A stretch of 45,128 nucleotides of DNA from Gammaproteobacteria bacterium (GTDB lineage Bacteria; Pseudomonadota; Gammaproteobacteria; Nitrosococcales; Methylophagaceae): the NCBI GenBank assembly GCA_028598975.1, contig JAQRMU010000078.1, positions 1 to 45,128 on the forward strand. Direction: 5' to 3'. Below, in pieces: positions 3,862 through 9,657 of the stretch (within the stretch, counting starts at the first letter, position 1; each line of letters opens with the position of its first letter). The notes beneath the pieces are model-generated. The model was not told where the DNA came from and ran no database searches. It saw only the letters and a program-made list of their open reading frames with translations. The position numbers were made by a program, and so were the translations under genes.

Positions 3862-3869
3862 GGGGGGGG
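3862..3869. repeat. Homopolymer of eight G upstream of lapB
   Basis: Eight consecutive G in an otherwise AT-rich intergenic region, about 155 bases before the lapB-like start. It matches in length the G8 run that interrupts the lapC-like gene 2.6 kb downstream. Runs like this slip during replication and can change promoter spacing, but this one lies upstream of the candidate -10 element. Confidence 0.9.
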
Positions 3870-4024: not shown

Positions 4025-6223
4025 ATGGAACAAGATATAACATCATTAGAAGACAGCAAGGCATTAGAAGATAATCAGGTGCAGTGGACTGCCGAGAATA
4101 GTCAGCAGACGCTCGATGATCCATTACTAAGTTGCTTAACGATTCTTAGTAAACTTTTGCACAAACCTCATAGTTCTAAATCCTTAATAGCAGGGCTTCC
4201 ATTAGTTGATAATAAACTTACCCCTAAGTTATTTTCACGAGCAGCAGAACGAGCAGGATTATCATCAAAGGTTGTTAACCGTCCCATTAGGAAAATATCA
4301 AACCTAGTTTTACCCGCAGTATTGTTATTAGAAAATAGCATGGCGTGTATTGTCTTAGAATTCAAAAAAGACTCGGCAACCGTTATTTTTCCTGAGTCAG
4401 GTGAAGGTGAGTCTGAGATTTCATTAGATAAATTGAAAGAGCAATATACGGGCTTTGCTATTTTCATTAAAGCTGTTCACCAGTTTGATAATCGTACTGA
4501 AAAAACAACAATTCCTCGCACCAAGCACTGGTTTTGGGGAACTATATTACGATTTTGGCCGATTTATGGTGAAGTTTTCATAGCCTCGATTTTAGTAAAC
4601 TCATTTGCTTTGGCATCGCCCTTATTTATCATGAATGTTTACGACCGTGTCGTACCAAATCATGCGATAGAAACCTTATGGGTGCTTGCCATTGGTGTTG
4701 CAACCGTTTTTGTCTTTGACTTATTACTGAGGACGTTACGCGGCTATTTTATAGACATGGCGGGTAAGAAAGCAGATGTTATATTGTCTGCCACCATTTT
4801 CGAAAAGGTGCTGGGAATCAAAATGGCATCGCGTTCAAACTCGGTAGGCTCTTTTGCAAATAGCATGCAAGAGTTTGAGTCGTTTAGAAAGTTCTTTACC
4901 TCAACGACATTAACAACATTGATCGACTTGCCTTTCGCATTCTTATTTATATTTGTGATTTGGACTATTGCAGGTGAATTAGCTTATGTACCACTAGCAG
5001 CGATTCCATTAGCGATTATTGTTAGCCTTGTTATTCAAGTTCCGCTAGGGCGGACGATTCAACAGTTATTTCGTTATTCGGGCCAAAAAAGTGCGACTTT
5101 AATTGAAACCCTAACAGGCCTAGAAACGATTAAAAGTATTGGGGCAGAATCACCCATTCAGAGAAAATGGGAACAAACGATTGGTTTTATTTCTAAATAT
5201 AGTCAACGTTCTCGTATTTTATCGTCAACAGCTATCAACTTTACGGCATTTTTACAACAGATGGCATCTGTAAGTATTGTTGTATTCGGTGTTTATAAAA
5301 TATCGGAAGGTGATATTACGATGGGGGCACTTATTGCGAGTACGATTCTTACGGGACGAGCACTTGCACCATTGGGACAGGTTGCAGGGATTTTGACTCG
5401 TTATCATCAATCAAAAGCCGCCTTAAGTTCACTGAATCATTTAATGAGTCTGCCGGTTGAGCGGCCATCTGGTCGGGAGTTTTTACACCGCCCTGATTTT
5501 AAAGGCGGCATTACATTTAAAAATGTTTCATTCAGCTACCCAGAGCAACCAATGAATGCTTTATCTGATATTTCTTTTTCTATTAAGCCAGGGGAAAAGG
5601 TTGCCTTCATTGGCCGAATTGGTTCAGGAAAAAGTTCAATTGAAAAGTTGATCTTAGGTCTGTATGAGCCTACAGATGGAGCTATTTTGTTAGATGGCAC
5701 TGATATTCGCCAAATTGACCCTGTCGATTTACGCCGTAATGTGGGGTATGCACCACAAGATGTTGTACTGTTTTTTGGAAGTGTTCGAGATAATATTGCG
5801 ATGGGCGCTCCATTTGCTGATGATGCTGCTATTCTTAAGGCCGCAGAAGTTGCTGGTGTAACGGAGTTTGTTAACCGCCATCCTGCTGGCTTTGACTTAC
5901 CTGTTGGTGAACGCGGTGAGGGGTTATCTGGTGGACAGCGCCAAAGTGTTGCTGTGGCAAGAGCACTCTTACTTGAACCTCCAGTCCTTGTGTTAGATGA
6001 GCCTACTAACGCGATGGACAACAGTACGGAAGATCAATTCAAGGCAAAACTCGCCTCTGAACTAGGAGATAAAACATTACTCTTAGTGACACACAAAGCT
6101 TCTCTATTGAGTCTTGTAGACCGAATTATTGTTATGGACCAAGGGAACCTGCTTGCTGATGGACCTCGCGAACAGATATTAACTGCGCTTAAAAAAGGCC
6201 ATATCAAAGTGTCAAAAGGATAA
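4025..6223 (+). CDS. lapB: Type I secretion ABC transporter, LapB/LssB family
   Basis: An inner-membrane ABC exporter (permease fused to ATPase) that powers type I secretion, in this family typically of very large RTX adhesins. The 732-residue product has an N-terminal C39-like domain without a catalytic Cys at the expected place, so it should bind substrate rather than cleave it. A six-helix transmembrane domain follows at roughly residues 170-450. The ATPase has Walker A GRIGSGKS near residue 531, signature LSGGQ near 634 and Walker B VLVLDEP near 655. It is followed after six bases by the lapC-like adaptor, and a LuxR regulator and a TolC-like channel come next. The subfamily assignment rests on order and the degenerate C39 domain. 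No adhesin gene lies nearby. Confidence 0.88.
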   Translation: MEQDITSLEDSKALEDNQVQWTAENSQQTLDDPLLSCLTILSKLLHKPHSSKSLIAGLPLVDNKLTPKLFSRAAERAGLSSKVVNRPIRKISNLVLPAVLLLENSMACIVLEFKKDSATVIFPESGEGESEISLDKLKEQYTGFAIFIKAVHQFDNRTEKTTIPRTKHWFWGTILRFWPIYGEVFIASILVNSFALASPLFIMNVYDRVVPNHAIETLWVLAIGVATVFVFDLLLRTLRGYFIDMAGKKADVILSATIFEKVLGIKMASRSNSVGSFANSMQEFESFRKFFTSTTLTTLIDLPFAFLFIFVIWTIAGELAYVPLAAIPLAIIVSLVIQVPLGRTIQQLFRYSGQKSATLIETLTGLETIKSIGAESPIQRKWEQTIGFISKYSQRSRILSSTAINFTAFLQQMASVSIVVFGVYKISEGDITMGALIASTILTGRALAPLGQVAGILTRYHQSKAALSSLNHLMSLPVERPSGREFLHRPDFKGGITFKNVSFSYPEQPMNALSDISFSIKPGEKVAFIGRIGSGKSSIEKLILGLYEPTDGAILLDGTDIRQIDPVDLRRNVGYAPQDVVLFFGSVRDNIAMGAPFADDAAILKAAEVAGVTEFVNRHPAGFDLPVGERGEGLSGGQRQSVAVARALLLEPPVLVLDEPTNAMDNSTEDQFKAKLASELGDKTLLLVTHKASLLSLVDRIIVMDQGNLLADGPREQILTALKKGHIKVSKG

Positions 6224-6229
6224 AGTAAT

Positions 6230-7562
6230 ATGGCATGGTTAAAACGCACCCATCCAGATGATGCTGACTTTATGTCAGAAGTGAGTGCTGCCACTCTAGA
6301 GTCTGCACATCGGGTAGGACACTCTTTGCTTATCCTAACATTAGCATTCTTTCTTGCTGCTGGTTGGTGGGCCTATGAAACATCTTTAGATGAAGTTACT
6401 CGTGGTGATGGCAAAGTTGTGCCCTCGAGTAAAATCCAGGTTATTCAGAATTTGGAGGGGGGGGATTTTATCTGAGGTGCTTGTTGCAGAAGGGCAAACT
6501 GTTGAAAAAGATGAGATACTTTTAAAAATTGATGATACGCGTTTTTCCTCGTCATTTAGGGAAACAGAACTTAAATATTATGAGTTACTCATCCGAAGTA
6601 TTCGTCTAAAAGCAGAAAGTTTGGATAGTAGGGTTGTCATCCCAGCAGAAGTGACAGAAGCTGATCCAATATTAGCTGAAAATGAAATGACATTGTATAA
6701 AACACGGCAATTAGAATTAGAATCAGCTATTCGAGTATTACAGCAACAAAAAGCGCAACGCCAGCAAGAGTTAGTTGAGCGACGTGCACGACAGTCTCAA
6801 TTACAACAGAGTTATGAATTGAGTGATCAAGAACTCAAAATGTCTGAACCTTTAGTCGATGCAGGTGTAATGTCTGAAGTAGAAATTTTACGCTTAAAAC
6901 GTTCTGTTAATGACTTATTTGGAGAAAAGGAGGCAAATCGCTTAGCAATCCCAAGAATTCGTTCTGCCTTAGCGGAAGTCAACCAGAAAATTGAAGAGCA
7001 ACGCATTCAATTTAGAACCGATGCTGCAAGTCAATTTTCAGAAGTTAATGCAGAACTAGCTCGGAGAAAAGAAACTATCTTTTCACTCGGAGATCGAGTA
7101 ACACGTACACAAGTTAGATCACCAGTAAAAGGTACAATTAAACAATTAAAAATTAATACTGTTGGTGGTGTTATTCAACCAGGAATGGATTTGGTAGAAA
7201 TTGTTCCAATTGAAGATAATTTATTGATTGAAGCAAAAATAAGGCCCGCAGATATTGCTTTTTTACGCCCTGGACAAGAGGCAATGATCAAGCTTACTGC
7301 TTATGACTTTTCAATTTATGGTGGCTTACCGGCAAAGCTTGAACGAATTAGTGCTGATACAATTACAAATGAGAAAGATGAAAGTTTTTATTTAATTTAT
7401 TTAAGAACAGAAAAGAACTATATTGATAGTAATAAGGGAATGTTAAATATTATTCCTGGAATGACCACGAGCGTAGATATTTTGACCGGCAAGAAAACAG
7501 TGTTAGATTATTTACTAAAACCAATTCTTAAAGCTAAAAATGAGGCGTTAAGAGAAAGATGA
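6230..7562 (+). pseudogene. lapC: LapC-like membrane fusion protein, frameshifted at a G8 run
   Basis: The periplasmic adaptor (HlyD/LapC family) that joins the ABC exporter to the outer-membrane channel. The first frame, from ATG 6230, gives an N-terminal membrane helix and VTRGDGKVVPSSKIQVIQ, then stops at 6473-6475. The second frame continues as ILSEVLVAEGQTVEKDEILL, a lipoyl-like hairpin, a long coiled coil (about 6600-7080) and a beta-barrel domain ending at 7562. With seven G instead of eight at 6457-6464 the two join perfectly as NLEGGILSEV, the normal family motif, into one protein of about 443 residues. So the interruption is a +1 in a homopolymer. It overlaps the next gene by ATGA. 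Phase variation, true mutation or sequencing error cannot be separated here. Confidence 0.88.
6457..6464. repeat. Homopolymer of eight G inside the lapC-like gene
   Basis: Eight consecutive G over the Glu-Gly-Gly codons of the conserved adaptor motif. Removing one G restores the full reading frame; the eight-G state ends translation nine codons after the tract begins. It is therefore a possible on/off switch as well as a likely sequencing-error site. Confidence 0.95.
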
Positions 7563-8206
7563 CATCAATGGTTAAAGCCAACTTTCACATTATTGCCTCA
7601 GATAAGGATTTATCTCGGGCAATTAAATCTACGCTATTAAAGTCATTTAATATCCTTATAAGTAGAGGCTTACAAGATTATTTATCCTCATCTGTGGCTG
7701 AAGAAGTAAGCCTTATCATTTGCCAGAGTTCAATATTGGACAATGATGATGTGGCAGCAATAAAAGATATTAAGTCGCTTAATCCTAACGCACGGATTCT
7801 AATCGTTGGCCCAAGTTGTACCAGTGCTGAACAAATATCATTACTGAAACATGGTGCTCGCGGCTATTTTGATACGTCAGAGTCGTTGGATAAATTAAAT
7901 GAAGCTGTTCAATGCATTCTTCATGGAGAGGTCTGGATTGAGCGCTATGTGATTTCGGGCTTAATTGATGAGCTTGCACATGTGCCAGAAATAAATAAGG
8001 AGCAGCGACAAGCTGTATCGACATTGTCTCCAAAAGAGCTCGAAGTAGCTCAATTTGTGAGTCATGGTGCAACAAATAAGATGATTGCGAAAAATATGTC
8101 AATTACAGAACGTACTGTTAAAGCACATCTAACGACTATTTTTCAGAAAATGAGTCTTGCAGATCGTTTGTCTTTAGCAATATTTTTCCGTGATTTACGA
8201 GAATGA
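7559..8206 (+). CDS. LuxR/NarL-type regulator with degenerate receiver domain
   Basis: A 215-residue two-domain regulator. The N-terminal half (about residues 6-125) has a receiver fold: FHIIASDKD at the start, LIIC for the third strand, ILIVGPS and GARGYF further on. The C-terminal half (about 150-212) is a LuxR-type helix-turn-helix with LSPKELEVAQFVSHGATNKM and RTVKAHL. The phosphoacceptor Asp expected after the third strand is replaced (LIICQSS), and the usual Thr and Lys positions also differ. Phosphorylation is therefore unlikely, and control may be by another input. It overlaps the lapC-like stop (ATGA), so it is made with the secretion genes. Control of the secretion operon or its substrate is inference from position. 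Confidence 0.85.
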   Translation: MTSMVKANFHIIASDKDLSRAIKSTLLKSFNILISRGLQDYLSSSVAEEVSLIICQSSILDNDDVAAIKDIKSLNPNARILIVGPSCTSAEQISLLKHGARGYFDTSESLDKLNEAVQCILHGEVWIERYVISGLIDELAHVPEINKEQRQAVSTLSPKELEVAQFVSHGATNKMIAKNMSITERTVKAHLTTIFQKMSLADRLSLAIFFRDLRE

Positions 8207-8330: not shown

Positions 8331-9657
8331 ATGAAATTGTAAAAATACAATGATAGGGGTCTCAGTATGCTTAATTACTTCGACCACGGTATGGTCTGCT
8401 TCACTAGAGGAGGCCGTAGGCACCACGATCAAAACAAATCCTGATGTGTTAGCTGCTGGTAACGAGCGAAATGCTGTATCTAAAGAGATTGCACAAGCGC
8501 GTGCTGGTTATTTCCCTACCATTGATTTAGCGGTTGGTACGGGCTATGAGTCTACAGATAGCCCAACGACTCGAGTAGGCGACTTCCATGGGAATGTTCA
8601 TAAAAATCGTGACGAGGCAAGTCTTAATTTACGTCAAATGTTGTTTGATGGAATGCAAACAAAAAATGAAGTACTTCGTCATACAGCCCGTACAAACTCT
8701 CGTGCTTATACTGTCTTTGGTGCAGCTGAAAATACAGGCTTAGAAGCTGTTGATGCATACCTTAATGTCTTACGTAGACAACGGTTAGTTGAATTAACCA
8801 CGACTAATCTTGAAGCTCACGAGCGCACACACGATCAAATTCGTTTACGAAGTGAACGTGGTGTCGGGCGTAAAGCTGATATGGATCAGAGCCAAGGTCG
8901 TGTAGCACTTGCTAGAGCAAACCAAATAGCAGAACAAAGTAATCTTCGCGATGCAGAAACTAACTATTTACGTGTTGTCGGTGAGGTCGCAGAAGATTTA
9001 TCAGATCCTGCATCACCAAGAAGCTCAATACCTGAAACGCTTGATGAAGCTATTAGTTTAGCAATAGAAAATCACCCAACATTAAAATCTGCAAATGCTG
9101 ATATAGATTCGGCAAATTCACAACACGATACCGCTGCCGCTGTTTTTTACCCTCGAGTTGACTTTGAATTGGACACAACTGCAAACAATGATCTTGATGG
9201 CATAGATGGTCATAATAATGATGTAACAGCAATGTTTCGTTTACGTTACAACTTGTTAAATGGCGGTAAAGACAAAGCCCGTCGTGAAGAAACTGCTTAT
9301 TTGATTAATCAAGCATCAGAGATTCGTAACAATACATACCGTCAAGTTGAACAAAGTGTGCGCCTATCATGGAATGCATTAGAAACGGTTAATAATCAAA
9401 TGAGCTTTTTTCAGTTACATGTTGATTCAAGTGAAAACTCTCGAAATGCCTACCAGCAACAATTTAGTTTAGGGCAAAGAACATTACTTGATTTATTAGA
9501 TTCTGAAAATGAAGTGTTTGTCGCTCGCCAAGCATTAGTTAATGCTCAATACGATCAACTATTTGCTCTGTACCGAGTGTTAAATAGTACGGGGAGTTTA
9601 TTGCAAACTTTGCAAGTTGCATTACCTGAAGCGAGTGCAGTGGTTGATAATAAATAG
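8331..9657 (+). pseudogene. lapE: TolC/LapE-like outer membrane channel, frameshifted at codon 4
   Basis: Outer-membrane efflux protein completing the type I secretion channel. The body is intact from 8350 to 9657 (435 codons): SLEEAVGTTIKTNPDVLAA, two repeated coiled-coil units (about residues 15-215 and 220-425), and a C-terminus with RTLLDLLDSENEVF, typical of LapE/AggA-like TolC proteins. The well-spaced RBS serves ATG 8331, which reads MKL then TAA. Without the T at 8340 it becomes MKLKNTMIGVSVCLITST, a normal signal peptide with a basic n-region, and a 441-residue protein. Initiation at 8350 would still give a weak signal sequence, so activity may be reduced rather than lost. Termination is by the hairpin at 9684. 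Confidence 0.8.

Follow-up and report, generated by a model that had tools for sequence, protein, structure and literature searches.

Homopolymer contingency loci that affect secretion components are known from the ESX-1 system of Mycobacterium tuberculosis, at the espK and espR tracts (PMC11898584), and a short-tract switch in fliP of Helicobacter pylori is cited in the same source (Josenhans 2000, as cited in PMC11898584). Homopolymers of at least eight bases are a class found to be variable within Neisseria colonies (PMC5084427). Our literature search found no paper on lapB or lapC with a homopolymer frameshift, or on phase variation by homopolymer frameshifts in metagenome-assembled genomes. 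The locus analyzed here resembles the Lap-type type I secretion system of Pseudomonas (LapEBC with LapG), and its adaptor gene changes frame at a run of eight G.

The window, the whole 45,128-nucleotide stretch of DNA that was analyzed, is contig C76 of a 94-contig, 1.88-Mb assembly (G000). Most of the closest named relatives are Methylophaga sp., Piscirickettsiaceae, and Gammaproteobacteria metagenome-assembled genomes, and the source itself was most likely also assembled from a metagenome and represents a Methylophaga-like, probably marine, species of the Methylophagaceae. The nearest species compared, G028 (= L039, WTAY01000190.1), is 88% identical across 9 kb; a search of viral contigs for conspecific sequence returned no match. 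The secretion locus comprises the following features.

3862 to 3869, plus strand: second G8 run, with no evidence of function; the exporter gene starts about 155 bases downstream.
4025 to 6223, plus strand: LapB/LssB-class type I secretion permease/ATPase with a C39-like domain, intact (TIGR03375, 1012 bits).
6230 to 6475, plus strand: 5' portion of the LapC/HlyD-type adaptor gene, encoding 81 residues up to TGA 6473-6475; one membrane segment is predicted, and 78 residues align with L010 at 97% identity.
6457 to 6464, plus strand: G8 run within the conserved Glu-Gly-Gly codons, the site of the adaptor frame change.
6390 to 7562, plus strand: 390-residue open reading frame in the next frame, with the rest of the adaptor (TIGR01843, HlyD_3; 88% identical to L010).
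7559 to 8206, plus strand: LuxR-type regulator whose receiver domain is VpsT-like (by domain match) and whose ATG overlaps the adaptor stop; it keeps this position after the adaptor in related loci.
8350 to 9657, plus strand: TolC-family outer-membrane channel, intact (TIGR01844, 319 bits).

The genes are thus ordered exporter, adaptor, LuxR/VpsT-like regulator, and TolC channel, with the adaptor ATG (6230) just past the exporter end (6223). The scores of the exporter against TIGR03375 and of the channel against TIGR01844 are above the cut-offs. As in the Lap-type system of Pseudomonas, an LssB/LapB-class exporter and a TolC-family channel occur here, with a candidate LapG homologue in the genome, and the HlyD-family adaptor is ~50% identical to Pseudomonas proteins. 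The LapG homologue is encoded elsewhere in the genome (G000:C6) and scores above the cut-off for Peptidase_C93 and below that for NF045674 LapG (235 bits, cut-off 320); LapD is not encoded next to this gene. Of the related Methylophagaceae loci examined (L039-L053), all but L050, whose adaptor is broken, likewise have a LuxR-type reading frame behind the adaptor; none is seen in the Pseudomonas-like loci checked. In some of L039-L053, the stop of the adaptor and the start of the regulator overlap as well.

The system would be expected to export an adhesin. The type I secretion target domain TIGR03661, a single model for genes that often lie at contig ends, is found in five of 12 relatives vs none in the source genome. 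The proposal of an earlier, sequence-only reading, that the break turns adhesin secretion on and off, is unsupported, and this one model detects no type I secretion adhesin in the genome.

Frame 1 from the ATG at 6230 reads MAWLKRTHPDD...SSKIQVIQNLEGGDFI, ends in ...VIQNLEGGDFI, and terminates at TGA 6473-6475. The remainder of the adaptor (GGILSEV...) lies entirely in the next frame and continues to TGA 7560-7562. The start of the 390-residue frame at 6390 is spurious, its first residues being out-of-frame noise; the true coding begins at ~6465. In profile searches, this frame scores 331.7 bits against TIGR01843 (type_I_hlyD), above the cut-off, and it also matches solved structures of type I HlyD-class adaptors. 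Both pieces match single intact genes of relatives, with open frames mostly of 443-475 residues, and the coordinates are consistent with the rejoined protein of 443 residues that had been proposed. The split does fall exactly at the G8 run (6457-6464), as the sequence-only reading stated, and the protein is indeed a LapC/HlyD-class adaptor of a type I secretion system, adjoining a LapB/LssB-class ABC exporter and TolC. The gene therefore contains a homopolymer at which a one-base change shifts the frame, as a contingency locus does.

The claim that the gene is otherwise undamaged also stands. No further stop or frame change is seen in the adaptor gene beyond the G8 run, and dN/dS against the nearest species is low on both sides of the run, at 0.048 before it and 0.081 after it. 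The corresponding values are 0.028 for the exporter, 0.066 for the channel, 0.085 for the regulator, and ~0.03 for fabA and fabB, with dS in these genes of about 0.4-0.6. By this measure, the coding part past the frameshift has not decayed. Since there is no other damage and the dN/dS of the adaptor is like that of its neighbours, the break either happened very recently, is polymorphic, or does not exist in the organism.

The G run sits on the invariant Glu-Gly-Gly of the HlyD/LapC adaptor family, and the adaptor is intact and in a single frame in nearly all relatives of the genus and family that have the gene. Of 71 homologous motifs, 63 have no G run longer than 2-3, four reach 5-6, and four reach 7. 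The nearest species is one of those with G7, in frame, and the run in the window is one base longer. The homologue alignment that had been suggested as a check, with lack of the run in homologues named beforehand as refuting the switch, goes against a conserved run, which is missing from almost all relatives, and a conserved switch is ruled out (G7 in 4/71, G8 in 0/71). Judged from these alignments, the G run is a coincidence of codon choice in a conserved motif. The gene is absent from some small genomes of the genus (G012 and G018). In G008 (isolate NORP33; L033 ~1396-1520, and L050), the adaptor is broken by a one-base change ~100 bases past the Glu-Gly-Gly, at a site that is not a homopolymer.

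The 1.88 Mb contain 31 G/C runs of exactly 7, ten of 8, seven of 9, and none longer. A G8 tract is therefore unremarkable by itself; what stands out is that frame changes cluster at G/C runs of at least 8. With seven exact G9 runs, this genome has more than any other of the 25 genus genomes searched, which have 0-4. The neighbourhoods of all G/C runs of at least 8 were examined with ORF maps and codon-usage scoring. A frame change is found at four of the nine coding runs of 8-9, and the other five are in frame, including those in gpmI and a cytochrome c gene, where the differences from the nearest species are synonymous glycine codons. Besides the adaptor, the genes that change frame at such runs are as follows.

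L132:5702-7016 (G000:C16): hipA-like gene, split between Couple_hipA and HipA_C.
L129:1980-3675 (G000:C3): DUF1631 gene, intact in the nearest species.
L137:5603-6854 (G000:C46): Peripla_BP_6 substrate-binding protein gene, intact in the nearest species.

These other genes have unrelated functions, and the genes with broken frames look dispensable. All of ~16 coding G7 runs (Fisher p 0.01 vs the four of nine) and all 40 coding A/T runs of at least 7 (p 0.0006) are free of frame changes, and net indels relative to the nearest species occur at 5/12 G/C runs of at least 8 vs 0/25 G/C runs of 5-7 (p 0.002); the tract classes were set after looking at the data, and the p-values are indicative only. 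At A/T runs of at least 6, net indels number 4/122. In other genomes of the genus, the frame is lost at only one, perhaps two, of ~17-18 coding G9 runs; the excess therefore seems peculiar to this assembly. The tract class is indel-rich here, and a length-dependent consensus error would give the same picture; the pattern favours length-dependent slippage or such an error.

Three other origins of the pattern were considered and rejected. Loss of mismatch repair is ruled out because mutS and mutL are intact, and a mutator state is thus not the reason for the indels. A platform-wide homopolymer error is contradicted by the coding G7 and A/T runs of at least 7, which are all in frame, although, with only five coding A/T runs of at least 8, an error that sets in at a threshold length could have gone unseen. 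An artefact in which sequence is overwritten with G was suggested by the nearest species, which often has at least three non-G bases at the positions of G8-9 runs, yet the per-site mismatch is similar at G5-G7 runs (0.23-0.29, compared with 0.29-0.36 at G8-9 runs). Two further observations concern other parts of the genome: close to an intergenic G8, L136 carries at ~5898-6010 (G000:C36) a dispersed repeat of ~75-110 bases that G028 matches in at least 25 places, and an apparent EAL-domain gene has a probable frame change at L137 ~4285-4290 (minus strand), at a site that is not a G/C run.

The reading we favour, with a probability of about 0.5, is an incidental one-base slip in a short, unstable G run, which either happened very recently or is still polymorphic and which shows no sign of selection. 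Slippage without selection ranks first, followed by a consensus error, a selected switch, and a fixed pseudogene. Slippage is favoured because the break lies exactly at the run and the run exceeds the G7 of the nearest species by one base, because net indels are concentrated at the longer G/C runs, because downstream selection on the adaptor is not relaxed, and because A/T and G7 runs are clean, shortened runs are absent, and genes such as gpmI remain in frame. The confinement of the excess of broken runs to this assembly, with the G9 runs of other genus genomes mostly in frame, argues against it.

The G run would have arisen because G-rich codons happen to encode the invariant Glu-Gly-Gly of HlyD/LapC adaptors both in this genome and in that of the nearest species. 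A one-base slip at the run, the presumed mechanism of the length change, would then terminate the adaptor at residue 81. A protein so truncated should fail to link the exporter to the channel, and the sequenced genotype should thus be without a working type I secretion adaptor. Translation of the overlapping LuxR gene, or its expression, would probably be reduced after the slip, and ribosomes that slip at a low level on the run could still make some full-length adaptor. As the G8 would still be slippery, reversion presumably occurs at some rate. There is no sign that the tract is kept or selected as a switch.

It is also possible, at a lower probability, that the run has been called one base too long through an error of sequencing, amplification, or assembly consensus, and that the gene is intact in the organism. 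Such an error would account for the low dN/dS past the frameshift and for the adaptors of the relatives, every one of which reads through the G-run site intact. It would also explain why four unrelated genes are broken at similar runs in one fragmented assembly when the G9 runs of relatives are mostly in frame, and it is consistent with the intact mutS and mutL. However, no coding G7 run (0/~16) or A/T run of at least 7 (0/40) is broken, and five G/C runs of at least 8, including that of gpmI, are in frame. Platforms that handle homopolymers poorly mostly shorten runs, and shortened runs are not seen here.

A phase-variable switch under selection, in which slippage toggles the secretion adaptor and hence a surface adhesin in the population, is possible but unsupported, and we regard it as unlikely. 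Its attractions are a run length within the range known to vary (PMC5084427), the homopolymer switches of secretion components known elsewhere (PMC11898584), the indel-rich G/C runs of at least 8 in this genome, and the in-frame G7 of the nearest species. The run is not conserved, however, with only 2-3 G in 63 of the 71 motifs and G8 in none, the other broken genes are functionally unrelated, and the TIGR03661 target domain is not found in the genome. The second G8 run (3862-3869), considered as a transcriptional switch, is not conserved in 14 upstream regions and lies outside every predicted promoter. The slipped-strand switch proposed by the sequence-only reading therefore survives in part: the break coincides with the run, the gene is otherwise undamaged, and length shifts are unusually frequent at G/C runs of 8-9 in this genome, but hardly any homologue has the run and the company of unrelated broken genes speaks against a dedicated switch. 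With a run that is not conserved and a single consensus sequence, the locus should not be filed as phase-variable. A broader version, in which G/C runs of 8-9 are genome-wide contingency loci of a free-living marine methylotroph (affecting the adhesin exporter, the HipA-family protein, the DUF1631 protein, and the substrate-binding protein) with tracts arising anew in each species, is improbable. A fixed pseudogene, with the adaptor lost in the lineage and the operon starting to decay, is the least credible, since the exporter, channel, and regulator all remain whole and show low dN/dS, the candidate LapG homologue is retained, and a break placed precisely on the adaptor's longest G run is more like slippage than random decay, even though the adaptor of G008 is broken by one base at a different, non-homopolymer site, G012 and G018 lack the gene, and the genome yields no TIGR03661 domain.

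A switch, if real, would be a further case of the known homopolymer secretion switches, in a new host and system. If the tract is polymorphic, an environmental methylotroph would have a switchable type I adaptor, and bet-hedging between attached and planktonic life could be tested from metagenome reads. If the run is a consensus error, G/C runs of at least 8 in such assemblies yield false pseudogenes and false switches.

Compared with the known homopolymer loci, the adaptor is most like espK and fliP, where a one-base homopolymer change likewise puts a gene of a secretion apparatus out of frame; at espR, the length change alters expression. The ESX-1 and fliP tracts are documented to vary in length from isolate to isolate and to be reversible, whereas the present locus is represented by one consensus sequence and its run is not conserved in relatives. 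Compared with Pseudomonas LapEBC, the locus differs in two respects: its adaptor is broken, and a VpsT/LuxR-type regulator stands between adaptor and channel, as it also does in the relatives.
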